From: Modestobacter sp. VKM Ac-2985
GTDB lineage: Bacteria; Actinomycetota; Actinomycetes; Mycobacteriales; Geodermatophilaceae
Assembly (NCBI RefSeq): GCF_026967925.1
Contig: NZ_JAPVBI010000002.1
Span: 620,001-684,000, forward strand
DNA length: 64,000 nt
Reading direction: 5' to 3'
In this document: in pieces, positions 2,041 to 34,328 of the stretch
How positions within the stretch are numbered: position 1 is the first letter of the stretch
Layout: each line of letters starts with the position of its first letter
Notes under the pieces: model-generated
The model's input: only the letters and a program-made list of their open reading frames with translations
Databases searched by the model: none
What the model was told of the DNA's origin: nothing
Made by a program: the position numbers and the translations under genes

Positions 2041-4976
2041 CAGCGGCCCCGGAGCGCCCCCGCGTGGGGGTGGCGGACCTGGAGCAGGAGCTGACCCGGG
2101 CGCTGGACGGCGAGGTCGCCTTCGACGACTACACCCGGCACATCTTCAGCCAGGACGCCTCGATGTACACGATGACGCCGGTCGGGGTCGCCTACCCGGC
2201 GCACACCGCCGACGTGGTCGCCGCGGTCCGGCTGGCCCGCGAGGCCGGCATCCCGGTGCTGGCCCGCGGGGCGGGCACCAGCCTGGCCGGCCAGACCGTC
2301 GGCCCGGGGCTGGTGCTCGACCTCTCCCGGCACATGCACCGGATCACCGAGCTGGACCCGGAGGCGCGCACCGCCCGGGTCGAGCCGGGTGTCGTGCAGG
2401 ACGACCTCAACCGGGCCGCCGCCGACGCCGGCCTGATGTTCGGGCCGGACACCTCGACGTCCAACCGCGCCACCATCGGCGGGATGATCGGCAACAACTC
2501 CGCCGGCAGCGGCTCGGTGCGCTTCGGCATGACGATCGACCACGTCCAGGAGGTCGACGTCGTCCTGGCCGACGGCTCGACCGCCACCTTCGGGGTCGTC
2601 GACGAGGCCGAGCGCGCCCGCCGTGCCCAGGGGGACACGCTGGAGGCGGAGATCTACCGCCGGCTGCCCGAGCTGGTCGCAGCGAACACGGAGGCGATCG
2701 CCACCGGGTTCCCGTCCTTCTGGCGGCGGGCCGGTGGCTACCGGCTGGACCGGCTGGCCGAGGGGCAGCCCTTCGACCTGGCGAAGTTCCTGGTCGGCTC
2801 CGAGGGCACGCTGGCGATCATCACCTCGGCCCGGGTCGGGCTGGTGCCCAAGCCGTCCAAGCAGGTCTTCGCCGTGGGCCACTTCGAGACCGTGCAGGCG
2901 GCGATCAACGCCACCGAGGACGCGCTGTCGGTGGACCCGGCGCAGGTCGAGCTGCTGGACCGCACGATCCTGGACCTCTCCCGGCAGAAGATCGAGTACG
3001 CCGGGCTGGGCAAGATCCTGCAGGGCGACCCGGAGGCGCTGCTGTTCGTCTCCTTCACCGGGGACGACGAGGCGCAGCTGGTCGACTCGATGAACGCCCT
3101 CGTCGAGCTGTGGGAGCGCAACGGCCACGGCTACCACACCCTGCGGGCGGTCACCCCGGCCCAGCAGGGCGCCCTGCTCAAGGTCCGCAAGTCCGCCCTG
3201 GGCCTGCTGATGGCCAACTCGGTGGGTGCCCGCCGGCCGCTGGCGTTCGTCGAGGACACCGCCGTCGACCCCAAGCACCTGGCCGCCTACACCGCCCGCT
3301 TCCGCGACGTGCTGGACCGGCACGGGCTCGAGGCGGGGTTCTACGGCCACTGCTCGGTGGGCTGTCTGCACATCCGCCCGTTCGTCGACCTCTCCCAGCC
3401 GGGACAGGTCGAGGTGATGCGCTCGGTCGCCGTCGAGGTCAAGGACCTGGTGCGCGAGTACGGCGGGGTGAACTCCAGCGAGCACGGCGACGGGCTCGCC
3501 CGCAGCGAGTTCAACCGCGAGCTGTTCGGCGACGACCTCTACGAGGCGATGCGCCAGGTCAAGGGGATCTTCGACCCGCAGGGCACGCTGAACCCCGGCA
3601 AGATCGTCGACTCCCCGGCGATGACCGAGCACCTGCGGGACGAGAACCCGCCGCAGCCCGGCCCGCTGCGCACCCGCCTGCAGTTCGACGTCGTCGGGGG
3701 GATGTTCGGTGCCGCCGACCGCTGCATGAACATCGGGCTGTGCCGCAAGTCCACGACCGGTGCGATGTGCCCGTCCTACATCGCCACCCGGATGGAGGAG
3801 CACTCCACCCGTGGCCGCGCCGGTGCGCTGGTCAAGGCGCTCAGCGAGGGCGACCCGCACACCGCGCTGGCCGACGAGCGGCTGCACGAGGTGCTCGACC
3901 TGTGCCTGATGTGCAAGGCGTGCAAGAGCGAGTGCCCGCTCGGCGTCGACGTCTCGGCGATGAAGAGCGAGGCGCTCGCGGCCAAGCACGACGTGTACGG
4001 CACCCCGCTGCGGTCGCGGGCGTTCGGGGCGATCCGGACGCTCAACCGGCTGGGTTCGGCCACCGCGCCGCTGTCCAACCTGCCGGGCAGGATCAAGCCG
4101 CTGCGGGCGCTGATGGACGCCCGCCTCGGCATCGCCCGGCAGCGTGACCTGCCGGTCTTCCACCGGACGACGCTGATGCGCTGGTTCAAGCGGCACGAGG
4201 TCCCGGCGGCGCTGACCCAGCAGCCGGTCACGATGCTGGCCGACTCCTTCACCAGCTACACCGAGCCGGGCATCGGCCAGGCCGTGGTGCGGCTGCTGGA
4301 GGCGGCCGGGCACCCGGTGCGGCTGGAGAGCAAGGGCTGCTGCGGCCGCGCGAGCATCTCCAAGGGCCTGCTGGACGACGCCCGGGGGAAGGCGCAGAAG
4401 CTGGCGGCCAACCTCTGCGAGGGCTCCGAGCCCGGCTCGCCGATCGTGGGCTGCGAGCCCTCCTGCATCCTCACGCTGCGGGCCGAGCACGTGGAGCTGC
4501 TGCCCGACGACCCGAACGTGCGGGACGTCGCGGCGCGGGTGAAGCTGCCCGAGGAGCTGCTGGTCGAGGCGATCGACGCCGGTCGCCTGCGGCTGCGCGA
4601 GGACAGCTGGCTGGCCGGGCGGACCGTGGTCTTCCACGGCCACTGCCACCAGAAGGCCGAGGCGGGGACGGCGGCCACGGTCGCGCTGCTGTCGCGGATC
4701 CCCGGGGTCACGGTGCAGGAGCTGGACGCCGGCTGCTGCGGCATGGCCGGGTCGTTCGGCTTCGAGTCCGAGCACTACGACATCTCCCTGGAGGTGGGGG
4801 AGGACCGGCTCTTCCCGGCGGTGCGGGCCGCCGCGCCCGACGCGGTCATCGCCGCGACCGGGGTCTCCTGCCGCCAGCAGATCTTCCACGGCACCCAGCG
4901 CACCGCCTGGCACCCGGCGGAGCTGGTCCTGGAGGCGCTCTCCCCGGAGGTGCCGACGACGCAGGTGCCGGCCTGA
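2037..4976 (+). CDS. FAD-linked 2-hydroxyacid oxidase fused to Fe-S/CCG domains
   Basis: This 979-residue fusion oxidises a 2-hydroxyacid (D-lactate, glycolate or D-2-hydroxyglutarate type) and passes electrons through iron-sulfur clusters. The N-terminal half is a GlcD/Dld-type FAD domain (PVLARGAGTSLAGQTVG, then NRATIGGMIGNNSAGSGS) followed by its substrate-cap domain. Next come two cysteine clusters, CMNIGLCRKSTTGAMCP near residue 563 and CLMCKACKSECP near 623, typical of a paired 4Fe-4S ferredoxin domain. The C-terminus has two CCG-type motifs (SKGCCGRAS near 770 and DAGCCGMAG near 900) as in GlpC, LutA and HdrB. The layout matches YdiJ-like proteins. Its start overlaps the aminotransferase stop (ATGA), and a terminator follows at 5002. 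Confidence 0.85.
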   Translation: MTAAPERPRVGVADLEQELTRALDGEVAFDDYTRHIFSQDASMYTMTPVGVAYPAHTADVVAAVRLAREAGIPVLARGAGTSLAGQTVGPGLVLDLSRHMHRITELDPEARTARVEPGVVQDDLNRAAADAGLMFGPDTSTSNRATIGGMIGNNSAGSGSVRFGMTIDHVQEVDVVLADGSTATFGVVDEAERARRAQGDTLEAEIYRRLPELVAANTEAIATGFPSFWRRAGGYRLDRLAEGQPFDLAKFLVGSEGTLAIITSARVGLVPKPSKQVFAVGHFETVQAAINATEDALSVDPAQVELLDRTILDLSRQKIEYAGLGKILQGDPEALLFVSFTGDDEAQLVDSMNALVELWERNGHGYHTLRAVTPAQQGALLKVRKSALGLLMANSVGARRPLAFVEDTAVDPKHLAAYTARFRDVLDRHGLEAGFYGHCSVGCLHIRPFVDLSQPGQVEVMRSVAVEVKDLVREYGGVNSSEHGDGLARSEFNRELFGDDLYEAMRQVKGIFDPQGTLNPGKIVDSPAMTEHLRDENPPQPGPLRTRLQFDVVGGMFGAADRCMNIGLCRKSTTGAMCPSYIATRMEEHSTRGRAGALVKALSEGDPHTALADERLHEVLDLCLMCKACKSECPLGVDVSAMKSEALAAKHDVYGTPLRSRAFGAIRTLNRLGSATAPLSNLPGRIKPLRALMDARLGIARQRDLPVFHRTTLMRWFKRHEVPAALTQQPVTMLADSFTSYTEPGIGQAVVRLLEAAGHPVRLESKGCCGRASISKGLLDDARGKAQKLAANLCEGSEPGSPIVGCEPSCILTLRAEHVELLPDDPNVRDVAARVKLPEELLVEAIDAGRLRLREDSWLAGRTVVFHGHCHQKAEAGTAATVALLSRIPGVTVQELDAGCCGMAGSFGFESEHYDISLEVGEDRLFPAVRAAAPDAVIAATGVSCRQQIFHGTQRTAWHPAELVLEALSPEVPTTQVPA

Positions 4977-5001
4977 CCGCCGGCTGAGACACACCACCGC
5001 C

Positions 5002-5045
5002 GAACGGGCGGCGAGCGGACCCTCGGGTCCGGTCGCCGCCCGTTC
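5002..5045. terminator. hairpin terminator after the oxidase operon
   Basis: Two 20-base arms (5002-5021 and 5026-5045) pair with one mismatch around a CTCG loop, 25 bases past the oxidase stop. There is no T-tract, as is usual in very GC-rich actinobacteria. Confidence 0.75.
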
Positions 5046-5079
5046 TGCGTCTGCGAGACGCGCGTCACCGGAGCTGCAT

Positions 5080-5123
5080 GTTGCAGACAGCAACCAACGA
5101 GCGCACGATGGTTGCTGTCTACA
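5080..5123 (+). promoter_or_regulatory. palindromic operator upstream of marR
   Basis: GTTGC-N5-GCAAC (5080-5094) is a perfect 15-bp palindrome. In addition the 15-base arm at 5082-5096 is the inverse of 5109-5123 with one mismatch, separated by 12 bases. This nested symmetry lies 46-89 bases before the GTG of the MarR gene and is where such an autoregulator would be expected to bind. Confidence 0.6.
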
Positions 5124-5168
5124 TGTACCGGGTGGTCCACCCGGCGGCGGATCAGCAGGGGACGCGAC

Positions 5169-5723
5169 GTGCAGCTCACCCCGGAGACCTCCGAACGGCT
5201 CACCGCCGGCGTGGCCCGGCTGGTGCGCACCGTCAAGCACCTCGGTCCCCGGGCCGCGGCCGACCTCTACGGCGACCTCCCCTCCTTCGGCTGGGCGCTG
5301 CTCGTGCCGCTGGAGCAGGACGGCGCCCAGCGGTGCAGCGCCCTCGCCGAGCGGGTCGGCGTCGACGTCTCGGTGGCCAGCCGGCAGGTGGCGGCGCTGG
5401 AACGTGCCGGCTACGTCGAGCGGCGGCCCGACCCGCTCGACGGCCGCGCCAGCCTGATCAGCATCAGCGACGCCGGTTCCGCAGCCCTCCTCCACACCCG
5501 CGGCGTCCGCGGCCGGTGGGCGGTGGAGGCGCTGGCCGACTGGACCGAGGGTGAGGCGCGCGAGTTCAGCGGCCTGCTGGAGAAGCTGGCCGACGGCCTC
5601 GACCGCGCGGGTCGCCGTCCCGCCCGGGCCGGCGGTCCCGTCCCCGCAGCCCGCGCTCCTGCGACGTCCACGTCCACAACGCCCGCACCTGCACCTGCAA
5701 CGCCTGGAGAGAACCGCCGATGA
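5169..5723 (+). CDS. MarR-family transcriptional regulator of the adjacent exporter
   Basis: The 184-residue protein has the MarR winged-helix layout: a helical dimer region, then CSALAERVGVDVSVASRQVAALERAGYVERRPDPLDGR, where VSVASRQVAALERAG is the recognition helix and RRPDPLDGR the wing. The C-terminal 30 residues are an Ala/Pro/Thr-rich low-complexity tail absent from most MarR proteins. GTG 5169 is preferred because AGGGGA stands 8 bases before it; the frame is open upstream to 5112, but that would run through the operator. The stop overlaps the exporter start (ATGA), so the pair forms a classic MarR-exporter unit, probably repressed until a ligand binds. Confidence 0.85.
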   Translation: MQLTPETSERLTAGVARLVRTVKHLGPRAAADLYGDLPSFGWALLVPLEQDGAQRCSALAERVGVDVSVASRQVAALERAGYVERRPDPLDGRASLISISDAGSAALLHTRGVRGRWAVEALADWTEGEAREFSGLLEKLADGLDRAGRRPARAGGPVPAARAPATSTSTTPAPAPATPGENRR

Positions 5724-7381
5724 GCAGCCCTGCACCCACCCGGTCCGCCGCCGGGGCGACCGTCGACCCGGCCGCCGGTCCGGCGGCGGTCGCCCCCGTC
5801 GAGCAGCAGGGGCGGATGACCCACCGGCAGATCCTCAGCGCGCTGTCGGGGATGTTGCTGGCGATGTTCGTGGCGTTCCTGTCCTCGACCGTCGTCTCCA
5901 ACGCGCTGCCGACGATCATCACCGACCTGCGGGGCACGCAGAGCCAGTACACCTGGGTGGTCACCGCCACCCTGCTGGCCTCGACCGCCTCCACGCCGAT
6001 CTGGGGCAAGCTCGCCGACCTGTTCAGCAAGAAGCTGCTGATCCAGATCTCGATCGTGGTCTTCATCGTCGGCTCGATGCTGGCCGGGCTCTCGGGGTCG
6101 CTGCCGACGCTGATCGGCTGGCGGGTGCTGCAGGGCCTGGGGCTGGGCGGGCTGCAGGCGCTGGTGCAGATCGCGATGGCCGCGATGATCAGCCCGCGGG
6201 AGCGGGGCCGGTACTCCGGGCTGCTCGGCTCGGTGATGGCGGTCGCCACCGTCGGCGGCCCGCTGATCGGTGGCCTGCTGGTCGACACCAGCTGGCTGGG
6301 CTGGCGCTGGTGCTTCTTCGTCGGCGTCCCGTTCGCGGCAGTCGCCCTGGTGCTGCTGCAGCGCACCCTGCACCTGCCGGTGACCAAGCGGGACGTCTCC
6401 ATCGACTACCTGGGTGCGGCGTTCCTGACCGCCGGCGTCTCGGCCCTGTTGATCTGGGTGACCCTGGCCGGGGACAGCTTCGCCTGGGCGTCGGTGGAGA
6501 CCGCCCTGTTCGTCGGGGGCGGCGTGCTCGCCATCGTGGCCTTCGTCGTCACCGAGCTGCGGGCGAAGGAGCCGATCGTCCCCCTCCGGCTGTTCCGGGA
6601 CCGGACGACGACCCTGGCGATCATCGCCAGCGTCGCCATCGGTGTCGCGATGTTCGGCTCCACGGTCTTCCTCGGCCAGTACCTGCAGATCTCCCGTGGC
6701 TACTCGCCGACGGCAGCCGGCCTGCTCACCATCCCGATGGTCGGCGGCCTGCTCGTCTCCTCGACCGTCTCCGGGATCCTGATCACCCGCACCGGGTTCT
6801 GGAAGCGCTACCTGGTCGCCGGTTCGTTGCTGGTGGCCCTCGGGTTCGGCCTGCTGGCCACGATCGACCACGCCACGGACATGGTCGTGCTGTGCGTCTT
6901 CCTCACCGTGCTCGGCACCGGCATCGGCATGACCATGCAGAACCTCGTACTGGCCGTGCAGAACACCGTGGCCGCCACCGACCTGGGGGCGGCCAGCTCG
7001 GCGGTGGCGTTCTTCCGCAGCCTCGGCGGCACGATCGGGGTCTCGGTGCTCGGCGCGGTGCTCTCCAGCCGGGTGGGCACGCTGATCCAGTCGGGGGTGG
7101 CCGACGTCCCGGGGGCATCGGCTGGGTCCCAGGACATCGGGCTGGCCAGCCTGGCCGACGCCCCTGCGCCGATCCAGGCGCTGATCCGGGTCTCCTACGG
7201 CGACGCGACCGGGCGGGTCTTCCTCATCGCGGCGGTGCTGTCGATCGTCACGATCGTGGCCGTCCTGCTCATCCGGGAGGTCGCGCTGCGCACCGAGACC
7301 GGTGACGAGCGGCTGCAGACCGAGGCCGGGCCCGACACGACCGCCGACGTCGACCGGCAGCTGGCCGGCCGGCGCGGCTGA
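5720..7381 (+). CDS. DHA2-family MFS drug:H+ antiporter (EmrB/QacA type)
   Basis: The 553-residue integral membrane protein is of the 14-span DHA2 type. Visible marks are the start of the transporter fold at QILSALSGMLLAMFVAFLSSTVVSNALPTI, the PIWGKLADLFSKKL loop (motif A) and the GRVLQG-like WRVLQGLGLGGLQALVQIAM segment. These antiporters expel lipophilic or cationic drugs using the proton gradient. The gene overlaps the MarR gene by ATGA and ends at a strong terminator, so it is very likely the main target of that regulator. The substrate cannot be read from the sequence. Confidence 0.88.
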   Translation: MSSPAPTRSAAGATVDPAAGPAAVAPVEQQGRMTHRQILSALSGMLLAMFVAFLSSTVVSNALPTIITDLRGTQSQYTWVVTATLLASTASTPIWGKLADLFSKKLLIQISIVVFIVGSMLAGLSGSLPTLIGWRVLQGLGLGGLQALVQIAMAAMISPRERGRYSGLLGSVMAVATVGGPLIGGLLVDTSWLGWRWCFFVGVPFAAVALVLLQRTLHLPVTKRDVSIDYLGAAFLTAGVSALLIWVTLAGDSFAWASVETALFVGGGVLAIVAFVVTELRAKEPIVPLRLFRDRTTTLAIIASVAIGVAMFGSTVFLGQYLQISRGYSPTAAGLLTIPMVGGLLVSSTVSGILITRTGFWKRYLVAGSLLVALGFGLLATIDHATDMVVLCVFLTVLGTGIGMTMQNLVLAVQNTVAATDLGAASSAVAFFRSLGGTIGVSVLGAVLSSRVGTLIQSGVADVPGASAGSQDIGLASLADAPAPIQALIRVSYGDATGRVFLIAAVLSIVTIVAVLLIREVALRTETGDERLQTEAGPDTTADVDRQLAGRRG

Positions 7382-7398
7382 CGCCCGGGACGCGCAGA

Positions 7399-7427
7399 GG
7401 CCCGTCTCCCCGACGGGGAGACGGGCC
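7399..7427. terminator. bidirectional hairpin terminator
   Basis: A perfect 13-bp stem (7399-7411 with 7415-7427) closes a GAC loop between the convergent exporter and osmC genes. Confidence 0.8.
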
Positions 7428-7469
7428 GCTGTGCGGTTCCAGGCGCCCGGCGAGCCCGGGGGCGCTGCC

Positions 7470-7904
7470 TCAGAGGAGGCTGGCGTCCAGGGTGATGTCC
7501 ACGGCGGCCAGCGCCTTGCTCACCGGGCAGCCGGCCTTGGCGGCCTGGGCGGCCTTGTCGAAGCCGGCGGCGTCGAGCCCGTCGACCTCGCCGCGCACGG
7601 TCAGCGCGATCGCGGTGATCGTCGGGGCGCCGTCCTGCTGGCCGAGGGTCACGTCCGCACTCACCTCGAGCGACTGCGTCGTGCCACCGGCCTTGCCGAT
7701 CTCGCTGGAGAGCGCCATGGCGTAGCAGGACGAGTGGGCGGCGGCGATGAGCTCCTCGGGGCTGGTGGTGCCCCCGGCCTCGTCAGCGGCCCGCTTGGGG
7801 AAGCTGACGTCGAACGTGCCGACCTTCGAGCTGGAGAGCTCGACCTGGCCGGAGCCCTCCTGCAGGGAGCCGTTCCAGGCAGTGCGTGCGGTACGGGTGG
7901 GCAT
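7470..7904 (-). CDS. osmC: OsmC-family peroxiredoxin
   Basis: The 144-residue protein is a thiol peroxidase of the OsmC family, which reduces organic hydroperoxides. The two catalytic cysteines are present: Cys60 in AAAHSSCYAMALS and Cys126 in AKAGCPVSKALAAV. The N-terminal TARTAWNGSLQEGSG segment is closer to OsmC than to Ohr. ATG 7904 has a perfect GGAGGT ribosome site; the frame is open about 25 codons further upstream but without family similarity. An OhrR-type regulator is encoded 133 bases upstream on the same strand and may control it. Confidence 0.88.
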   Translation of the reverse strand: MPTRTARTAWNGSLQEGSGQVELSSSKVGTFDVSFPKRAADEAGGTTSPEELIAAAHSSCYAMALSSEIGKAGGTTQSLEVSADVTLGQQDGAPTITAIALTVRGEVDGLDAAGFDKAAQAAKAGCPVSKALAAVDITLDASLL

Positions 7905-8037
7905 CGGACCTCCTCCTCGTCGGTGACGGCCGCGACGCAGGGCTGCGCCGCGGCCGGACACCGGTTCTGACGGGGTCAACCGTTCCCGGCCGGCGGTGTT
8001 CCCGCCACCGGGACGCGCTCGGCCCGGCTCGAGGTCG

Positions 8038-8499
8038 TCAGACCGGGGTGATCGCGCGGGTCTCGGCCACCCGCTCGGTGATCAGCCGCAGCTGGGCCTT
8101 CAACTCGTCGAACTGCGCCTGGTTCAGGGCCAGGGCGTCGATCATCTCCGCGGAGATCGAGCAGGCGGGGCCCTGCAGCGCCCGGCCGGCGTCGGTCAGC
8201 CGGACGGAGACCGACCGCTCGTCGTCGGCCCGGCGGTGCCGGGTCACCAGGCCCGCGGCGGTGAGCCGCTTGAGCAGGGGGGACAGGGTGCCGGAGTCGA
8301 GTGCCAGGCGGGTGCCCAGCTGCCCGACGCTCTGCCCGTCCTCCTCCCACAGCAACATGAGGACGAGGTACTGGGGATAGGTGACCCCCAGCTCGTCCAG
8401 CATGGGGCGGTATCGGGCGGTGACCGCACGTGAGGCCGCGTAGAGCGCGAAACAGAGCTGATCGTCGAGAGCGACGCTCGGCGACGGGGTGTCTGTCAT
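8038..8499 (-). CDS. OhrR-type MarR-family peroxide-sensing regulator
   Basis: The 153-residue MarR protein carries the OhrR signature LDDQLCFALYAASRAVTARYRP, in which Cys16 is the residue known in OhrR to be oxidised by organic hydroperoxides so that the repressor leaves DNA. The DNA-binding part is SVGQLGTRLALDSGTLSPLLKRLTAAGLVTRHRRADDERSV. Its likely target is the osmC gene directly downstream. TACTCT lies 6 bases before ATG 8499, so the mRNA is probably leaderless, and this fixes the start. OhrR normally pairs with Ohr; here the partner is OsmC-like. Confidence 0.87.
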   Translation of the reverse strand: MTDTPSPSVALDDQLCFALYAASRAVTARYRPMLDELGVTYPQYLVLMLLWEEDGQSVGQLGTRLALDSGTLSPLLKRLTAAGLVTRHRRADDERSVSVRLTDAGRALQGPACSISAEMIDALALNQAQFDELKAQLRLITERVAETRAITPV

Positions 8500-8614
8500 G
8501 TGGCAAGAGTAGGGCGCGATCCGGCTGTAGGCAGCCGTGTGGCCCAAGTCGTCGCGTTTTCTGCCAGGGTCGGAGGCCGCGGGGAGTCGGTCGGACGACC
8601 CTGGACGCCGCCAG

Positions 8615-8635
8615 GTTGAGTGGAACAGACTCAAG
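8615..8635 (+). promoter_or_regulatory. HAIR element (HspR operator) of clpB
   Basis: TTGAGT (8616-8621) and ACTCAAG (8629-8635) with a 7-base spacer match the HspR-associated inverted repeat CTTGAGT-N7-ACTCAAG except for the first base. It stands 63 bases before the clpB start, so clpB should be repressed by HspR and released on heat stress. Confidence 0.85.
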
Positions 8636-8697
8636 TCCTGCTCCGTTGAGCTCGACGAGACAGTCCCGTGCCGCAGGAGAGGACAGACCCACCCGCC

Positions 8698-11370
8698 ATG
8701 CAGAGCAAGCTCACCACCCGTTCGCAGGAGGCCCTCGCCGCCGCTCAGCGGCTGGCGGTCGACCGGGGCCAGGCGGCCCTCGAGCCCCTGCACCTGCTGG
8801 TCGCCCTGCTCGAGCAGACCGACGGCATCGCCGGGCCGCTCCTGCAGGCCACCGGCGCCGACCCGGCCGACGTCCGGGCCAAGGCCGACGCCGCGGTGCG
8901 CCGGATGCCGAGCGTCAGCGGCTCCACCGTGGCCGCCCCCGCGCCGTCCCGGGAGCTGCTGCGGGCGATCAACGCCGCCGGCGAGCAGGCCGGTGCGCTC
9001 GGCGACGAGTACGTCTCCACCGAGCACCTGCTGGTCGGCCTGGCCACCACGGAGGGGGAGGCCGGCGCCGTCCTGACCGGTGCCGGTGCCACGCGGGACG
9101 CCCTGGTCGCGGCGTTCCGCACGGTCCGTGGCAACCGCAAGGTCACCAGCCCGGACCCGGAGAACACGTTCCAGGCGCTGGAGAAGTACGCCGTGGACCT
9201 CACCGCCCGGGCCCGGGAGGGCCGGATGGACCCGGTCATCGGCCGCGACACGGAGATCCGCCGGGTGGTGCAGGTGCTCTCCCGGCGCACCAAGAACAAC
9301 CCCGTCCTGATCGGTGAGCCCGGCGTCGGGAAGACCGCGATCGTCGAGGGCCTGGCCCAGCGGATCGTCGCCGGCGACGTGCCGGAGAGCCTCAAGGGCA
9401 AGCGGCTGATGGCGCTGGACCTCAGCGCGATGGTGGCCGGGGCGAAGTACCGCGGTGAGTTCGAGGAACGGCTCAAGGCCGTCCTCCAGGAGATCACCGA
9501 GGCCGAGGGCCAGGTCGTCACCTTCATCGACGAGCTGCACACCATCGTCGGCGCCGGCGCCAGCGGTGACTCCGCGATGGACGCCGGCAACATGATCAAG
9601 CCGATGCTCGCCCGTGGTGAGCTTCGGATGGTCGGCGCGACGACGCTCGACGAGTTCCGCGAGCACATCGAGAAGGACCCGGCGCTGGAGCGCAGGTTCC
9701 AGCAGGTCTACGTCGGGGAGCCGTCGGTCGAGGACACCATCGGGATCCTGCGTGGCCTCAAGGAGCGCTACGAGGTGCACCACGGGGTGCGGATCACCGA
9801 CGGGGCCATCGTGGCGGCCGCGACCCTGTCCGACCGCTACGTCACCGCCCGCTTCCTCCCGGACAAGGCGATCGACCTCGTCGACGAGGCCGCCAGCCGG
9901 CTGCGGATGGAGATCGACAGCCGGCCGGTCGAGGTCGACGAGGTCGAGCGGGTCGTGCGCCGGCTGGAGATCGAGGAGATGGCGCTGGCCAAGGAAGACG
10001 ACCCGGCGTCCCTCCAGCGGCTGGAGACGCTGCGCTCGGAGCTCGCCGACCGTCGGGAGGCGCTGGGCGAGCTGACCGCCCGCTGGCAGCAGGACAAGAC
10101 CGCCATCGACCGGATCCAGCACACCAAGGAGGAGCTGGAGGGGGTGCGGCTGGAGGCCGAGCGCGCCGAGCGGGACGGCGACCTGGCCCGGGTCGCCGAG
10201 CTGCGCTACGGCCGCATGCCCGCGCTGGAGCGGGCGCTGTCCGAGGCCGAGGCGTCGGTCGCGGCCAGCGACTCCATGCTGAAGGAGGAGGTCGGCGCCG
10301 ACGACATCGCCGAGGTCGTGCAGGCCTGGACCGGGATCCCGGCCGGCCGGCTGCTGGAGGGCGAGACGCAGAAGCTGCTCCGGATGGAGGAGGAGCTCGC
10401 CCACCGGGTCGTCGGGCAGCCCGAGGCCGTCCGGGCCGTCTCCGACGCCGTCCGCCGGGCACGGTCCGGCGTCGCCGACCCGGACCGGCCGACCGGCTCC
10501 TTCCTGTTCCTCGGGCCCACCGGCGTCGGCAAGACGGAGCTGGCCAAGGCGCTGGCGGAGTTCCTCTTCGACGACGAGCGGGCGATGGTCCGGATCGACA
10601 TGAGCGAGTACTCCGAGAAGCACTCGGTGGCCCGGCTGGTCGGCTCGCCGCCCGGGTACGTCGGCTACGAGGCCGGCGGCCAGCTCACCGAGGCGGTGCG
10701 GCGCCGCCCGTACACGGTGGTGCTGCTCGACGAGGTCGAGAAGGCCCACCCCGACGTCTTCGACGTGCTGCTGCAGGTCCTCGACGACGGCCGGCTCACC
10801 GACGGGCAGGGCCGCACGGTCGACTTCCGCAGCACGATCCTCGTCCTGACGTCGAACCTCGGGTCGCAGGTGATCGCCGACCAGTCGATCCCCGACGCGC
10901 AGAAGCGGCAGGCCGTGCAGGACGTCGTGCGGTCGCACTTCAAGCCGGAGTTCCTCAACCGGCTGGACGACGTGGTCACGTTCCGCGCGCTCGGCTCCGA
11001 GGAGCTGGTCGGGATCGTCGACATCCAGGTCGAGGTGCTCGCCCGCCGGCTGGCCGCCCGCCGGCTCTCCCTGCGGGTGACCGACGCCGCCCGGGAGTGG
11101 CTGGCGCTGAACGGCTTCGACCCGGTCTACGGGGCCCGGCCGCTGCGCCGGCTGGTGCAGTCGGCGATCGGTGACCAGCTCGCCCGGGCCCTGCTCGCCG
11201 GCGAGGTCCGCGACGGCGACGAGGTCGTCGTCGACTGGGCGGCGGACGTGGCCGAGGGCGACGCCGGGCTCACCGTCACCCGGGGACCGGTGCCCGGGGA
11301 GCCGGCCACCGAGCCCGGTCCGACGACGGCACCGGCCCCGCCGGCGCTCGGTCCCGGCGCCGGCGAGTGA
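8698..11370 (+). CDS. clpB: ClpB disaggregase (Hsp104-family AAA+ chaperone)
   Basis: The 890-residue ATPase pulls polypeptides out of aggregates together with DnaK. Domains in order: Clp N-domain (1-145), AAA-1 with Walker A GEPGVGKT at 206-213, a middle coiled-coil of about 120 residues (roughly 405-525), AAA-2 with Walker A GPTGVGKT at 606-613, and a ClpB D2-small domain ending in [10 protein letters not shown]. The last ~45 residues are an acidic then Pro/Ala/Thr-rich tail, longer than in E. coli ClpB (857). ATG 8698 begins the family's [13 protein letters not shown]; a GTG at 8668 with a closer purine-rich site is an alternative adding 10 residues. A HAIR element upstream indicates HspR control. 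Confidence 0.95.
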
Positions 11371-25995: not shown

Positions 25996-27976
<1,981 letters not shown>

Positions 27977-28220
27977 GGTCCCCCGCCGTCGGGTTCCTCA
28001 GCCGGCGACCCGCTAGCCCAAACGGGTGACACGCCGACGACGCGCGGCTCGCCGGGATTGACCGGCGGGTGTGATTCGAGCAGTTGTGTCAGTGCGTGCG
28101 TGCATGCTTGGGTCGTTGCGAGGTCACAGGCCGCGAGCGGTTGAAGCCGCTGCAGCCGTTGGGGCGGCGAGCGCAGCTGGGACGACACGCGGATAGTGTT
28201 GGTCAAGACCGAAGGAGCCA

Positions 28221-28514
28221 ATGGAGAAGATGACTGCCTCAGCGATCGACCGGTCAAGCATCACGCCCGACCGCCGTCTGGATCGGGGATGGGATCCCCG
28301 AGCGGCCGAGCGAGCCGCCGAGGAGCGCGAAGACCGCGCCCGGGGTCTTGCGCTGCGCCTAGTTGGACCAACTGGTAATGAGTCCGCCGCCGACATCTTG
28401 GAGCAGGTCGCGGCCGAGACGAGTCCTGATGCAGCTGCTGCGGCCATTGTCGGCCTTCTCTCTGAGGGGCGCCTCACGCTCACGGGCGACCACCGGCTCC
28501 GGCCTCTCTTCTAG
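28221..28514 (+). CDS. hypothetical 97-residue protein
   Basis: ATG 28221 follows GAAGGAG and opens a 97-residue frame. The protein is charged in the middle (RAAERAAEEREDRARG) and ends in a segment, ILEQVAAETSPDAAAAAIVGLLSEGRLTLTGDHRLRP, that could form helices and a small beta wing like a winged helix. Its stop TAG overlaps the stop of the convergent dNTPase gene. I recognise no family. Base use is less GC-biased than in the surrounding core genes, as in the next three genes, so it probably belongs to the same acquired segment. Confidence 0.55.
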   Translation: MEKMTASAIDRSSITPDRRLDRGWDPRAAERAAEEREDRARGLALRLVGPTGNESAADILEQVAAETSPDAAAAAIVGLLSEGRLTLTGDHRLRPLF

Positions 28515-29842
28515 TACGCCATCCACGAGTCCAAAGCGGACTGGCCGGTTCGGCCGCGGAGTCGGCCGTGCATGTCGATGGCCTGGGCCTCGGTCAACAT
28601 CGCGATGTAGTCCGCCACGCAGCGTGCTGCCCGCGCCGTCTCATCTAGGTAGGTCTCGTTCCCGACTTCCTCCTCCGAAGCTGACCACAGGTCGAGCAGC
28701 CGCTTCGGTATCCGGTAGGGCTCGCGGTCTGCGTGGGCCCGCGGAAGCCACTCGAGCAGGTCGTCGAACAGCTCTCCCACCAGCCGGCGGTTGCCCTCCT
28801 GCATGGTCGCGAGAGCCGGGTCGTGGATGACGTAGTACCACGGCAGCTGCTTAAGCATCTTCACTGCGTACAGCGTCTGCGAAGGAACCCGCACCGGCTC
28901 ATGCAGGTCGCCCACTCGGACGGCGCCGATGAAGCTGTTGATCATTTCGCCCGAGGCCTGCTGGAGGGCTGCCAAGTCCCCGGCGGTCCCCCGGTAGTAC
29001 TTGGACCGGCTGAGGAACGTCTTGCCGACGAAGCGGAACGACTCCTCCGCCCGCTCCGGGTCGAATGACGAATCGCGCGGCGAGAGCTGGTTGGTCGCTG
29101 CCGCGACGAACCGCGTCATCTCCCGGCCGTCGGGGTCCAGCAGCCTGGCGATCGGGACCCTTCCAGCGCGCAGGAAGTCCTCCAGGTCGTGCACCGCGTA
29201 GGTCACGTCGTCAGCCCAGTCCATTACGGCAGCTTCCAGGCTCTTCGCGCCCTCCTCGCTGCCCTCCCGCGCGTCGTCGAACGCTCGCCGCTCAGTGGGG
29301 TACGCGTTCCACTTGAAGTGAGACCCGGTCTGCCCCTCAGGGCGGAGCCGTGGGTACTTGATCAGCCCGTTCAACGTGCGGGCCTGGAGATCGAGCCCCG
29401 GGGTGGCGTAATTGCCGCCCCGCAACAGCTTGGTGACCAGTCGGAACGTCTGGGCATTGCCCTCGAACCCGTCGAGACCGTGCTTCTCGCACCGCTCGTT
29501 CAGGACGGTCTCGCCGACATGGCCAAAGGGCGGGTGGCCGAGATCGTGCCCGAGGCCAGCCGCCTCTGCGGCCGGAACGTCGATGCCGCCCCACGGGGCC
29601 AACTTCGCCTCGCTGCCGTCGGCCCGGCTCAGGTGCTGGGCCAGCCGCCGGGCGATCTGCGCCACCTTCAGCGTGTGGGTGAGGCGGTTGTGGAACAGCG
29701 GCATCTCGCCAACCGCCACCACCTGAGTGACCCCGCCGAGCCTTCGGAAGCCGTCCGAGTAAAGGACGCGGTCGGCGTCATGCTCGGTATCGCTTCGCTT
29801 GTCAGGCGTCGACGCTTCGTCATGCGGGCTGCCTTCGGTCAC
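28511..29842 (-). CDS. HD-domain dNTP triphosphohydrolase (dGTPase-like)
   Basis: The 443-residue protein is a deoxynucleoside triphosphate triphosphohydrolase of the dGTPase family, which cuts dNTPs to deoxynucleosides and triphosphate. Metal ligands are visible: His56 in RLTHTLKVAQIA, His99-Asp100 in GLGHDLGHPPFGH, and the acidic pair 211-212 in MDWADDVTYAVHDLEDF. VLYSDGFRRLGGVTQV is the usual N-terminal family motif. GTG 29842 overlaps the stop of the upstream gene by GTGA, so both are translationally coupled. Length fits the family. Relatives are known to defend bacteria by destroying dNTPs during phage infection; a housekeeping role cannot be excluded, but the context (coupled TIR-like gene, atypical bases) favours defence. 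Confidence 0.85.
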   Translation of the reverse strand: MTEGSPHDEASTPDKRSDTEHDADRVLYSDGFRRLGGVTQVVAVGEMPLFHNRLTHTLKVAQIARRLAQHLSRADGSEAKLAPWGGIDVPAAEAAGLGHDLGHPPFGHVGETVLNERCEKHGLDGFEGNAQTFRLVTKLLRGGNYATPGLDLQARTLNGLIKYPRLRPEGQTGSHFKWNAYPTERRAFDDAREGSEEGAKSLEAAVMDWADDVTYAVHDLEDFLRAGRVPIARLLDPDGREMTRFVAAATNQLSPRDSSFDPERAEESFRFVGKTFLSRSKYYRGTAGDLAALQQASGEMINSFIGAVRVGDLHEPVRVPSQTLYAVKMLKQLPWYYVIHDPALATMQEGNRRLVGELFDDLLEWLPRAHADREPYRIPKRLLDLWSASEEEVGNETYLDETARAARCVADYIAMLTEAQAIDMHGRLRGRTGQSALDSWMAY

Positions 29843-30996
29843 CAGTGTCCCCCGATCTTGTTGAAGACGCGCACGAGGCCCATCGTGGACTCGTAGTCGA
29901 GCGAATCGCCGGTGTAGTGGACGTGCGGCAGGTGCTCCACGGCTGCCGGCATGGCCGTCGCCTTCGGGCACAGGAAGACGGTGCGGTCACCGCACAGCGC
30001 GACGGCGGCCCCGATGCGCATCAGCGACTCGTCGTCGGCCTCAGGCGGTCGCTCCAGGTTCGGCCGCAGGTCTACGACCGCCGCAGAGCAGCCGCGCATC
30101 CGTTTCATGATCTCGGGAGACAGAGCTGGCCCAGGCTCCTCCGAGGGGAAGACCGGGACGTAGCCACCGAAGGCCAGTATCTCGCCTAGCTGGCCGATCA
30201 GGGGACTGTCCACCGGGACCGACAGATACACCCTTGCCCGCGTCGCCAATACGCGTTCCGGCTCCCCGGCGCGGCGGGCTAGCGCCGCCTCAGATGCTTG
30301 AGATCCGCCGTGATGGGGCTCCAGCTGGGCCATGGTCTCCGCGAAGCTGTCCGAGAAGTGGGAGGGTGAGGTGAAGCTAGCGATCTCCTGCACGGGGCTG
30401 GCTCCTGGCGGTTTGGGGGTGGCCCCTGCGGTGAAGTCGATGCGCAGGATGGGTTGCCCATCGCCGGATCGGTCGAGCAGGTGGAAGTCGCGGACGTTGC
30501 CATTGATCACCGGGATCGCCCGCGAGATTTGCTGAGCGGGGTAGCGAGCTTCGAGCAACCGCCGCTGAAGAATGCGGTCGGGCGGCCACGGGCGTTCTGC
30601 GTACTTGCGCAGCATGTCGCCCATCAGCCGCGGCCGCTGCAGCGCCTCAAGTGCGGCCGCGTGTGCCTCCTCAGCGCTGGCCGGCAAGATCAACCGCCGT
30701 CCGAGGTCGGTAAGGCTAATCGCGTCCGCCTGTGCCCCCCCTTCCGTCAGCCCGTAGGCGACGCAGGCCGCCGTGGTGCTGCGGAACACAGAGCTAGTAG
30801 AGCTTTCGCCCATCTCCTGGGCTAGCTCTGCTGGGTCCACCGCGCGATGCGGTGCGCCGAGCCGGAGAAGGGCCTCGGGGATGGGGTAGAGGTCCAGGAG
30901 CGGGTAGAGCGGCATATCTGCCTGCGACAGCCGCGATCTCGGGCGGGCGCGGGTGGTGACCCCTGCCGCGACCGCGACCTCGATGTCATCTGACAC
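29839..30996 (-). CDS. winged-helix protein with C-terminal TIR/deoxyribosyltransferase-like domain
   Basis: The 385-residue protein has two parts. Residues 28-175 look like tandem winged helices of the DUF5343 kind: LYPLLDLYPIPEALLRLG, VDPAELAQEMGESSTSSVFR, and the wing ISLTDLGRRLILP. Residues 254-385 look like an alpha/beta nucleotide-binding domain of TIR or nucleoside-deoxyribosyltransferase type: RVYLSVPVDSPLIGQLGEIL, LSPEIMKRMRGCSAAVVDLRP, then GAAVALCGDRTVFLCP. Both assignments are from pattern only. It is coupled to the dNTPase by a GTGA overlap. GTG 30996 follows AGGGGAG. It may sense infection or a nucleotide and act with, or control, the dNTPase. Confidence 0.7.
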   Translation of the reverse strand: MSDDIEVAVAAGVTTRARPRSRLSQADMPLYPLLDLYPIPEALLRLGAPHRAVDPAELAQEMGESSTSSVFRSTTAACVAYGLTEGGAQADAISLTDLGRRLILPASAEEAHAAALEALQRPRLMGDMLRKYAERPWPPDRILQRRLLEARYPAQQISRAIPVINGNVRDFHLLDRSGDGQPILRIDFTAGATPKPPGASPVQEIASFTSPSHFSDSFAETMAQLEPHHGGSQASEAALARRAGEPERVLATRARVYLSVPVDSPLIGQLGEILAFGGYVPVFPSEEPGPALSPEIMKRMRGCSAAVVDLRPNLERPPEADDESLMRIGAAVALCGDRTVFLCPKATAMPAAVEHLPHVHYTGDSLDYESTMGLVRVFNKIGGHW

Positions 30997-31050
30997 AGCT
31001 GCTCCCCTGTTTGACCTCTCGAAGCTAGCAGGAAGCAGGAGCTGTTTCGC

Positions 31051-31087
31051 GCCTGTGGACGGATCGCGTTTCCGCTGGTCTACAGGC
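31051..31087. promoter_or_regulatory. inverted repeat upstream of the winged-helix/TIR-like gene
   Basis: GCCTGTGGAC (31051-31060) is the inverse of 31078-31087 except for one wobble-type mismatch, with a 17-base spacer. It lies 55-91 bases before GTG 30996 and could be an operator for the winged-helix protein. Confidence 0.45.
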
Positions 31088-31098
31088 TGAATAGATAC

Positions 31099-31131
31099 CT
31101 GTCATGACGGACTGTCGCTCCGTCGTGACAG
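31099..31131. promoter_or_regulatory. 13-bp hairpin/inverted repeat
   Basis: Arms 31099-31111 and 31119-31131 pair fully if one G-U is allowed, around a 7-base loop. It lies 12 bases beyond the inverted repeat at 31051-31087. It could be an operator or a folded RNA. Confidence 0.5.
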
Positions 31132-31321
31132 ATGACGGCGAAGACGTGCAGGTCAACGCGTTCACGGGGTGTCGGAACTAGGCGGTCCGACTGGGGGACT
31201 GGGCGGTCAGCGGGTGGTTGTGTGATCTGCATCGCAGACGCGGGCGACCTCGCGGGCTTCGGGTGATCGCTCGACCTGCTCCGACCGATGGGGCAGGCCG
31301 CACGATGCTGGCGGCATGGAA

Positions 31322-31356
31322 GCGCCCCGCCGCCAGGCCACCTGGCGGCGGGGCGC
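31322..31356. other. perfect 16-bp GC-rich hairpin
   Basis: Arms 31322-31337 and 31341-31356 are perfect inverses around a CCA loop. Because both flanking genes start away from it, it is not an ordinary terminator of either; it could insulate the two promoters or end a small RNA. Confidence 0.7.
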
Positions 31357-31412
31357 CGCGGTCGTGACTTGCGCCTTGAGAGGGCGATGCCAACCTCGGG
31401 CCGTATTCCGCA

Positions 31413-31433
31413 GGCGGCGCGCCGCCGCATAAT
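31413..31433 (+). promoter_or_regulatory. palindrome and -10 box before the membrane/coiled-coil gene
   Basis: GGCGGCGCGCCGCC (31413-31426) is a perfect 14-bp palindrome, directly followed by CATAAT (31428-31433), a good -10 box, 54 bases before ATG 31488. A repressor bound here would block the promoter. Confidence 0.45.
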
Positions 31434-31487
31434 GATTGCTCCCCGGCGGTCCGCCAGACTGGGGATCGGCGGGGGGAGTTCAGGCCC

Positions 31488-32405
31488 ATGGCCTCAGGCG
31501 ACTCGGCACGCGACTGGCTTCGCCTTGTCCGGGACGCGACCGGCACCGCGCCGCGTGACGCCCTACGGCTGAGCTGGCCCGGTGCTCCGGCCAAGATTGG
31601 GCTTCGAGCCGTCGCGGAAGTCTTAAGCGTCGTGGAGGGCCTGCTTGCCCTGAGCGCGCTGGCGACTCTGCCGGGCTACGAGGCAGCCCCGGTGCCCGAG
31701 GGGCGCCCGCACGGCCCGACAGGCGAACCCCGCGGGCGTGATCCCCGCCGCCGGTACGGAATCTGGCCAGATGGCGCCATGAAGGGGAGCCTGCCCACGG
31801 TCGATGTTCTCGTGGAGACCGACCGTCCATCGGTGCTGAGGATCCGATACGGCTCCCCACTCGTGATCGACCTTGAGGTGGTGCCGTCCGTCGGGCTGGC
31901 ACTCGCCTGGGTGGTCGCTCTCTTGGGCGCGGGTCGAGGCGGTGCATCGGCGCTCGTGAAGTTCCGGAAGGACTGGCACGAGGGGTCGACCATGAAGATC
32001 GAGGCGCAGGAGCGCAGCATCGGCGTGACGGAACGTGCGGAGGCCGCCGCCCGGTCCAAGTCGGCAGAAGCCGATCTGGCTGAGGAGCAGGTACGCACCC
32101 AATCCGCTCAAACGGCGAAGCTCGAGGCCGAGGCCGACGAGATCCGCGCGCGGCTGATGAGCGCGGCCACAGATGACGCGGCGACCCCTGGCCTCATCGC
32201 AGCCCGCGAGACGTACACCGCGCGGTTCCGGGATGGTCTAGAGGCTCGCGGCGACCACGGCGCCTACCGGCCCGGCGGTTCGATATGGGCCAACAATTAC
32301 GTCGAGCGAGCGGTCGAGATCGGAGCCTGGCGGATGGGCGAGAGCGGGCTGGTACTACCGGACGTCGCGGTCGTGAAGCGGCCCGCCGGGCCAGCGAGCG
32401 GCTAG
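31488..32405 (+). CDS. hypothetical membrane-anchored coiled-coil protein
   Basis: The 305-residue product has a soluble N-terminal half, one hydrophobic segment at about 131-150 (VVPSVGLALAWVVALLGAGR), and then a charged helical stretch at 165-226 (TERAEAAARSKSAEADLAEEQ and onward) that should form a coiled coil. The C-terminus is short and globular. A GGGGGAG ribosome site precedes ATG 31488. I recognise no family. It diverges from the dNTPase/TIR-like operon across an inverted-repeat-rich region and shares its less GC-biased base use, so it may be a membrane component or effector of the same system. Confidence 0.6.
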   Translation: MASGDSARDWLRLVRDATGTAPRDALRLSWPGAPAKIGLRAVAEVLSVVEGLLALSALATLPGYEAAPVPEGRPHGPTGEPRGRDPRRRYGIWPDGAMKGSLPTVDVLVETDRPSVLRIRYGSPLVIDLEVVPSVGLALAWVVALLGAGRGGASALVKFRKDWHEGSTMKIEAQERSIGVTERAEAAARSKSAEADLAEEQVRTQSAQTAKLEAEADEIRARLMSAATDDAATPGLIAARETYTARFRDGLEARGDHGAYRPGGSIWANNYVERAVEIGAWRMGESGLVLPDVAVVKRPAGPASG

Positions 32406-32947
32406 CTAGGCCGTTAGGCGGCCTACGCGCGCCACCTCAGCGGTGGGACCCCGGACACGGGGGATTGAGGTCCTCCGGACCTCACCGCGGCCAGCGGTCG
32501 TCCCCGGCCCGCGGTGAGCCGCTCAGTGAGTCGGGGCCGGAGAGCCTCCGGCCCCCGCGTCCCCGACCCACAGCCGCTTCGCGGCGACGTTGCTCATGGC
32601 GACCCTCCGGGCCGCACCGCGGCCAGGAGCCGTTTCCCGGCCGCGCTGAGCCGCTTCGTGGGATGACGGCAGGAGGCCTCCGGCCCCCGTGCCGCCCTCC
32701 CACAGTCGCCTCACGGCGACCCGGGGGTGGCGTTTCGGCGTCGACTCAACCGAGCCGTTCCCGGCTTGAGGTGGGCCGCTTGGTGGGATGAAGGCAGGGG
32801 CCTCCGGCCCGCGTGCCGTCCTCCCAAAGTCGCCTCGCGGCGACGCGGGGGTGGCGTTCCGGGGTCGGCTCACCCGCGCGTCCTCGGCCTGCGTCGTCGG
32901 CTGGCTCGACCCGTCCCCGGGCTGCCCGGCGTGCCCGTGTGTCGGCG
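32406..32947. other. 542-bp non-coding region, mostly tandem repeats
   Basis: No gene is supported. Frames that cross it are interrupted or shared among repeat copies. The region is taken up by the hairpin-rich tandem repeat at 32459-32905. Confidence 0.65.
32459..32905. repeat. about 3.5 tandem copies of a ~128-bp hairpin-rich unit
   Basis: Units end at 32588, 32720 and 32844 with the same motif (AGYCGCYTCRCGGCGAC-like), giving periods of 132 and 124 bases; a partial fourth unit runs to about 32905. Each full unit holds a long stem topped by a shared GCCTCCGGCCCNCG anchor (starting at 32544, 32676 and 32800) and a short stem at its end (GTCGCC-N4-GGCGAC in units 2 and 3). Sequence differs between units while most pairing is kept, as expected for a structure-selected element. 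Confidence 0.8.
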
Positions 32948-33186: not shown

Positions 33187-34233
33187 TCAGACCCGGGGGC
33201 GCACCGGTGCCATGGCGGTGGCGGAGAGCTCGGCGCGGGCGCGGTGGGCGGTCTCCGGAGCATCGGTGATCACGCTGTCGACGCCGAGGGCGAAGAGCAG
33301 CCGGGCCTCGGTCTGGGCGTCGCCCAGCCCGAGAGGGTCCCCACCGCGACGCAGGTGGCTGGGGAGGAAGACGTTCTCCGGCCGCAGCGTCCACGGCTCG
33401 ACGGTGAGACCGGCGCGGTGCGCCTGGGTGATCAGGTCCGAGACGCCGACGAGACCGCCGTCGGCGCCGTGCAGCAGGATCCGGCCCTTGTGCGGGGCGA
33501 TCCCGTCGGCGTAGGTCGAGACCTCGCGCAGGCCGGCGGGGGTGACCAGGGCGTCCTGGATGCCCTCCTCCTCGATGAGCTGCACCAGCCGGGGGCCGTT
33601 GCTGCCGAGGTCGGTCCGCAGCTCGCGCAGCGCCTGCTGCTCGAACGCCATGACGACGACGGAGCCGTCGACCCGGGCGGCGTCCAGCCGGCGCAGTTCT
33701 GCGGCGACCAGCTCGGTCATCGGCAGCCCCTGCGCGGCGAACCAGGACGGGCACTTCAGCTCCGCCTGCACCCGCACCTGGTGGCCCGGGGTGGACCGGC
33801 GGCGGGCCACCTCGACCACCTCGGCCAGGGTGAGGATCCCGAACCGGCCGTCGTAGGCGGTGTTCATCGGCCGCATCCCGGGCAGCCGCTCGACCGCGCG
33901 CAGGGTGCGCAGCTCGGCGAGGGTGAAGTCCTCGCTGAACCAGCCGGTCAGCTCCTCGCCGTCCACCTCCTGGGTGCGGCGGCGGTCGGCGAACTCCGGG
34001 TGCTGCGCCACGTCGGTCGACCGGGACAGCTCGTTCTCGTGGCGGGCCACGAGGACGCCGTCGCGGGTCACCACGACGTCGGGCTCGATCAGGTCGGCAC
34101 CGAGGTCGATCGCCAGCTCGTAGCTGGCCACGGTGTGCTCGGGCCGGTAGCTGGGTGCACCACGGTGCCCGATGATGCGCGGTGAGCGCTCTCGGCGGGG
34201 CGAGTGAACGGCCTTCAGGCCGGTCTCCTGCAT
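33187..34233 (-). CDS. glycerophosphodiester phosphodiesterase
   Basis: The 348-residue enzyme has the GDPD fold: IIGHRGAPSYRPEHTVASYELAIDLGADLIEPDVVVTRDGVLVARHE holds the catalytic HRG...PEHT and the metal ligands ExD, and later parts include QAELKCPSW, VVVMAFEQQALRELR and GLTVEPWTLRPEN. It splits glycerophosphodiesters to an alcohol and glycerol-3-phosphate. No clear signal peptide is seen. ATG 34233 is chosen because GGAG stands before it; ATG 34287 would add 18 residues but has no ribosome site. Confidence 0.9.
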   Translation of the reverse strand: MQETGLKAVHSPRRERSPRIIGHRGAPSYRPEHTVASYELAIDLGADLIEPDVVVTRDGVLVARHENELSRSTDVAQHPEFADRRRTQEVDGEELTGWFSEDFTLAELRTLRAVERLPGMRPMNTAYDGRFGILTLAEVVEVARRRSTPGHQVRVQAELKCPSWFAAQGLPMTELVAAELRRLDAARVDGSVVVMAFEQQALRELRTDLGSNGPRLVQLIEEEGIQDALVTPAGLREVSTYADGIAPHKGRILLHGADGGLVGVSDLITQAHRAGLTVEPWTLRPENVFLPSHLRRGGDPLGLGDAQTEARLLFALGVDSVITDAPETAHRARAELSATAMAPVRPRV

Positions 34234-34328
34234 GGCTCCAGGGAAACCCAGTTCCCTGTCCGGGGTCTGAACGCGCGCCGACTTCATGGGGACAAATCGG
34301 GGGACAAGCCGCTCACCTGGAGACGAGC

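Follow-up and report, generated by a model that had tools for sequence, protein, structure and literature searches.

An accessory insert of Modestobacter encoding an HD-domain dNTPase coupled to a winged-helix-like protein with a degenerate TIR fold: a candidate defence cassette

The window analyzed here, a 64-kb stretch of the 4.7-Mb genome of Modestobacter sp. VKM Ac-2985, contains an accessory insert of about 4.5 kb, extending from about bp 27,977 to 32,465, with purA on one side and a gene of the GDPD family on the other. Of its four ORFs, one encodes an HD-domain dNTPase whose catalytic residues are intact, and the start of this gene overlaps the end of a gene for a partner protein. The partner joins a winged-helix-like module, through a linker, to a predicted TIR fold from which the catalytic pair has been lost. 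The insert is likely a defence cassette. That the partner acts as a pseudo-TIR adaptor controlling the dNTPase is a reading to which we give a little less than an even chance; a working partner–dNTPase unit is the leading reading, unproven and built on one case. The features are as follows.

26612–27976: purA, flanking the insert on the left
27974–27985, plus strand: imperfect direct repeat of 12 bases, copy at the left edge, beginning in the purA stop codon
27977–32465, no strand: accessory insert (evidence: empty site in related genomes, low GC)
28221–28514, plus strand: small gene, 97 aa, convergent with the dNTPase gene, the ends overlapping by 4 bases
28511–29842, minus strand: HD-domain dNTPase, 443 aa, the proposed effector (evidence: Pfam, PADLOC, TIGR01353, catalytic residues)
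29839–29842, minus strand: partner stop and dNTPase start, overlapping as GTGA
29839–30996, minus strand: partner, 385 aa
29845–30234, minus strand: degenerate TIR domain of the partner, residues 255–384 (evidence: Foldseek, tail motif)
30016–30030, minus strand: Glu323 to Arg327, at the catalytic Asn...Glu positions of relatives
30439–30921, minus strand: winged-helix-like module of the partner, residues 26–186 (evidence: AlphaFold2; common to 24 other loci)
31488–32405, plus strand: divergent 305-aa gene with, by eye, a hydrophobic stretch and a coiled-coil-like tail
32466–32477, plus strand: repeat copy at the right edge, identical to the left copy in 11 of 12 bases
33187–34287: GDPD-family gene, flanking the insert on the right

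The insert and its edges

The initial annotation had called the segment accessory and lower in GC bias than its flanks; both statements hold, as do the positions given there for the four ORFs. Eleven of 22 genomes of the same genus, picked for good contigs, were fetched at purA. In all 11, the alignment jumps from 27.97–27.99 kb of the window to 32.47–33.19 kb, with 0 to about 180 bases intervening. The GC content of the insert is 68.3%, as against 70.6–77.5% in 102 overlapping windows of the same length, placed in steps of 500 elsewhere in the 64 kb. With up to one mismatch allowed, the 12-mer at 27974 has a sole other match in the whole window, at 32466, which is the opposite edge of the insert. 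No integrase was seen among the four ORFs, and a search of 27900–32900 for sigma-70-like promoter and terminator sites gave none. Adjoining the insert, bp 32466–32870 consist of GC-rich repeat units of roughly 125 bases each, and similar units occupy the same intergenic place in several genomes of the genus.

The divergent 305-aa gene has, besides its own genome, two weak partial matches and no trustworthy relative; plasmids and viral contigs yielded none. Any part that it or the small gene plays in the cassette would be conjectural.

The dNTPase and its relatives

The dNTPase matches Pfam HD and HD_assoc and the PADLOC dGTPase model (3e-87). It scores 227.3 bits against TIGR01353, the dGTP triphosphohydrolase subfamily (cut-off 152.35), and 226.4 bits against NF041026, the anti-phage dGTPase model, where the cut-off is 400. 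The HD metal ligands and the His/Glu catalytic dyad, i.e., His56, His99-Asp100, Asp212, His108 and Glu111, are all in place, in agreement with the intact metal residues described at the outset; their roles are assigned from CloA, as given in PMC12265719. Judged by these residues, the enzyme looks active. Its start is GTG 29842, within the partner stop codon and with GGGGG just upstream, which is the coupled layout that had been proposed. A longer alternative ORF begins at GTG 29971, but the ribosome-site-like sequence belongs to the overlapping start instead.

Another dgt is found in the same genome on a different contig (G000:C3), scoring 374 bits for PRK01286.1-2 (cut-off 393) and 177 bits for TIGR01353 (cut-off 152). 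Since this second dgt exists, the insert gene is not the sole dgt of its genome, the circumstance that the initial annotation had named as counting against its proposal, and the insert dNTPase was rejected as the housekeeping enzyme.

At E ≤ 1e-80, the clade of the insert dNTPase is found in 3 of 112 genomes of the family, its own and two others (G183 and G301), whose orthologues are 76% identical to it. A tree made by a quick method groups the three with support of 100; the deeper forks were left unused because the deeper joins have long branches and the host’s second dgt is badly aligned. The partner was not found at either orthologue locus, and DNA similarity to them stops at 29.77–29.80 kb, inside the dNTPase start. 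The small gene does have counterparts adjoining both orthologues, in two other genera, at 59% identity over 93 aa. The differences fall 23/23/63 and 25/23/59 by codon position over 91 codons, a coding-type pattern, and the small gene has no match in Pfam, PADLOC or NCBIfam.

The initial annotation had suggested looking for defence genes near homologues of the dNTPase, and the two closest orthologues have such neighbors: a cluster of IrrE/M78, SIR2_2 and Schlafen-AlbA_2 genes lies next to each (L073:1968-6726 and L074:10403-15239). The SIR2 gene in L073 matches the PADLOC ThsA model at 2.6e-9, and a helix-turn-helix gene was scanned in L074. IS110-like remnants suspected by eye upstream of the L073 dNTPase, and an integrase suspected by eye at the end of L074, were dropped, one scanned ORF in each case having no Pfam match. 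More distant relatives include four on plasmids, at 31–37% identity, with neighborhoods that feature abortive infection in one case and a CBASS cyclase in another; a third is uninformative and the fourth lacks annotation. In the first (L137, a Roseomonas mucosa plasmid, 2869–7167), the dNTPase gene has an ImmA/IrrE gene on one side and, on the other, a gene whose annotation is abortive infection family. In the second (L139, a Salinirubellus salinus plasmid, 4935–9580), a haloarchaeal dgt lies 2.3 kb from an annotated CBASS oligonucleotide cyclase gene. Four order-level relatives at 43% identity (L037–L040) have, by eye, no clear defence neighbor, and no relative was found among viral contigs.

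The partner protein and its family

By sequence, the partner has no family match in Pfam (E ≤ 1), PADLOC or NCBIfam and none in the PDB. AlphaFold2 predicts a winged-helix-like fold for the module alone (pLDDT 93, pTM 0.86); for the whole protein the values are 76.5 and 0.49, with a linker of low confidence and a TIR-type domain behind it. The module structure finds no confident match in the PDB, the best E being 0.09, and bears a weak similarity to transcription regulators. DUF5343 is a candidate family for the module; a search for it gave no match in the host genome, and none in the control genomes either.

For the C-terminal domain, the best Foldseek match is TIR-STING (E 8.3e-4, TM-score 0.27 by query length), followed by SARM1, with weaker non-TIR matches, e.g., KRas, from E of about 8e-3. 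Its tail LDYxxTMxLxxxFN recurs in relatives that match PF10137. The PF10137 profile itself does not match the partner (Pfam, E ≤ 1). A TIR fold is predicted on these grounds. In Sf STING, according to PMC9402430, N80 is accompanied by the catalytic E84, the same spacing as that of the Asn and Glu of the partner’s relatives. Motif and spacing served to map the Asn80 and Glu84 positions of TIR-STING onto the partner. All eight relatives with a complete TIR domain keep the motif N-x-x-x-E-(I/L)-G, whereas in the insert Glu323 and Arg327 replace the Asn and the catalytic Glu. With the catalytic pair replaced, an active TIR NADase is unlikely, and the domain probably has no such activity here; because Glu323 sits at the expected Asn position, a rearranged site is conceivable. 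The partner of the initial annotation, a winged-helix protein ending in a TIR-like domain, thus survives as a predicted module and fold, minus the catalytic Glu and Asn.

Counting its own genome, the partner is found in 2 of 112 genomes of the family. In the order it is found in at least 16 of 397, a figure that includes weak matches inside large ORFs, and profile searches gave at least 8 of 394 genomes of the class and at least 13 of 396 of the phylum; these three counts are lower bounds, at most four or five candidates having been scored per genome. A genome-collection scan with the insert partner alone returned no relative, and one with alignment A3 returned 11 module loci; their sources include actinobacteria as well as MAGs carrying the labels Dormiibacterota, cyanobacterium, Clostridia and Spartobacteria. 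Viral contigs contributed one module relative (L092); with the partner and a TIR-type relative as queries, nothing was found in plasmids or phages. The comparison set consists of 24 module loci besides the insert. Left out were L023/L086, a single 3.8-kb contig whose TIR is cut by the contig end, and L025, L065, L069–L072, L099, L103 and L104, which are fragmentary, match weakly or match within large ORFs. The L090 module gene (Geodermatophilus sp. DSM 45219) is identical to that of a same-family genome, G323.

This unnamed family carries effectors both in cis and in trans, arranged as follows.

Module with a complete TIR in cis, 8 of 24 loci: L020/L090, L084, L085, L088, L089, L091, L092, L105
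Module followed by a separate gene, 10 of 24 loci, made up of the next four lines
Module and PF18165 nuclease, 5 loci: L021, L022, L081, L082 (module split by a frame break), L083
Module and DUF4145, 1 locus: L087
Module and an unnamed family, 3 loci: L066, L067, L109
Module and another unnamed protein, 1 locus: L068
No nameable effector, 6 of 24 loci: L024, L064, L106, L107, L108, L110

PF10137 was matched in all five of the module–TIR loci that were scanned, and the intact TIR relatives weakly match PycTIR. At nine of the ten separate-gene loci, the module gene and the longest ORF downstream of it overlap. The GTGA pair of the insert fits this separate-gene layout, with the difference that its partner additionally keeps a TIR fold, and by its position the dNTPase occupies the place of the family’s separate effectors.

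The unnamed family right behind the module gene (L066:4596-5549, L067:4177-5151 and L109:6008-6766) has 28–34% identity between members and no Pfam match; by eye, it recalls a phospholipase-D-like fold. TIR-less module proteins (L068, 4825–5667, and L021, L022, L081 and L083) have in common a C-terminal tail that reads approximately H(I/V)NIEIHIAADA and may be where the separate effector is held. In L068, this tail gives a weak PADLOC PDC-M34A match.

No dNTPase is found in the 24 loci, 15 of which extend 1.5 kb or more to either side. In this sample, the insert itself apart, homologues of the partner never occur with a dNTPase, and the recurring pair that the initial annotation proposed to look for is lacking there as well as at the two closest dNTPase orthologues. 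The expectation that homologues of the partner would lie near defence genes was borne out in part: relatives do carry TIR or nuclease effectors, but defence neighbors are few. In a scan of 90 of the 121 flanking ORFs, made with no control set, PADLOC at E ≤ 1e-10 gave 36 families; among the matches listed (25 of the 36), mad8 has four members, mad3 three, and other models, such as AbiEii, PDC-S11, RecD and HerA, one each. Three of the 90 ORFs are phage integrases. The defence-island signal around the module family is weak.

Candidate mechanism, rival readings and known systems

We propose that the insert was acquired horizontally as an anti-phage cassette. The module, a piece common to an effector-bearing family, probably senses infection or holds the effector. 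The TIR domain would no longer cleave NAD+, and its probable role is that of a surface for binding or assembly. The dNTPase, produced by translational coupling, would be the effector: once released or activated, it would empty the dNTP pool and so stop phage DNA synthesis. The defence function, contact between partner and dNTPase, and the direction of control are what we infer. This explanation is favored because the insert is clean, the dNTPase has kept its catalytic residues and matches the PADLOC dGTPase model, and the genome has a second dgt; because the orthologues lie near SIR2, Schlafen-AlbA_2 and M78/IrrE genes, the family has an overlap layout and Clover sets a precedent; and because the TIR catalytic pair kept by the relatives is lost in the insert. 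It is weakened because the case is single, the orthologues lack the partner and module loci have few defence neighbors. The nucleotide-depletion defence system suggested by the initial annotation accordingly keeps its insert, its dNTPase residues, the second dgt and the orthologue neighbors, and loses the recurring pair.

A serious rival, though on balance an unlikely one, is that independent genes are stacked in the insert. The dNTPase would then act alone, perhaps with the small gene, like the single-gene Shewanella dGTPase, and the partner would be a decayed wHTH-TIR gene that happens to lie upstream. The occurrence of the dNTPase and small gene without the partner in two genera fits this, as do the loss of the TIR active site and the lack of a second partner–dNTPase pair among the 24 module loci. 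Decay is harder to reconcile with a partner ORF that is intact and has a strong codon bias, and its overlap with the dNTPase start is repeated between other family members and the genes downstream of them. It is improbable that the partner acts chiefly as a DNA-binding regulator of the operon that encodes it, its module binding the 490-bp intergenic region between it and the divergent gene and its TIR fold serving as a ligand or dimer domain: the winged-helix-like prediction, the weak similarity to transcription regulators and the divergent arrangement agree with such a role, but no PDB match has an E below 0.09, and modules fused to TIR or overlapping effector genes in relatives are more like a post-translational partner. 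An extra metabolic dNTPase, controlling dNTP pools and unrelated to phage, is more improbable still, since dGTPase-type enzymes are indeed common (matches in 316 of 397 genomes of the order at E ≤ 1e-30) but this genome has another dgt, and the clade is confined in the family to three genomes, the other two with defence-type genes nearby.

Beyond the controlled-dNTPase reading, we raise a wider one, which we consider rather doubtful: the partner would belong to an undescribed winged-helix-like adaptor family whose weapons can be exchanged (a TIR in cis, or a nuclease, DUF4145 or unnamed protein in trans); here the built-in TIR would have become a pseudo-enzyme that serves for control, and the dNTPase would have taken its place, a natural effector swap. 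If so, a nucleotide-depleting dNTPase would be controlled without the nucleotide-making partner used by Clover. The silencing and switching-on of defensive dNTPases are known in detail for Clover, and a pseudo-TIR adaptor would add another mechanism. A family with one conserved module and TIR, nuclease or other effectors would also let trigger be separated from weapon by swaps. Present support consists of one partner–dNTPase pair and the family pattern.

Among the matches listed from open-access titles and the starts of abstracts, a body of literature outside which most subscription journals lie, no dNTPase with a winged-helix/TIR partner was found, and Clover was the one two-gene dNTPase system recognized. 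Clover (CloA dNTPase and CloB nucleotidyltransferase), as described in PMC12265719, likewise has two genes, an HD dNTPase and a potential controlling partner, and offers a precedent for partner control of a defensive dNTPase. The residues named there for CloA have counterparts in the insert enzyme, and CloA (9p8t) is a distant relative of it (E 1.9e-23 over residues 11–236). The insert partner, however, is a module plus TIR fold without a nucleotidyltransferase, and none of the four ORFs matches a Pol-beta superfamily nucleotidyltransferase in Pfam, PADLOC or NCBIfam. Membership in Clover was rejected: the dNTPase is there and the nucleotidyltransferase is missing.

The single-gene anti-phage dGTPases (NF041026; PADLOC dGTPase) belong to the same enzyme family as the insert dNTPase, which differs in being coupled to a second gene and in scoring below the NF041026 cut-off. 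With TIR effectors of the CAP12/Pycsar type (PF10137; TIR-STING, PycTIR), the partner shares the TIR fold, TIR-STING being its best structural match, but PF10137 does not match it, its catalytic Glu and Asn are replaced, and the insert has no STING or cyclase gene. The module–PF18165 pairs have a homologous N-terminal module and a second gene that overlaps the end of the module gene; their second gene, in contrast to the dNTPase of the insert, is a predicted nuclease, and their module protein ends in a short tail where the insert partner carries its TIR fold.
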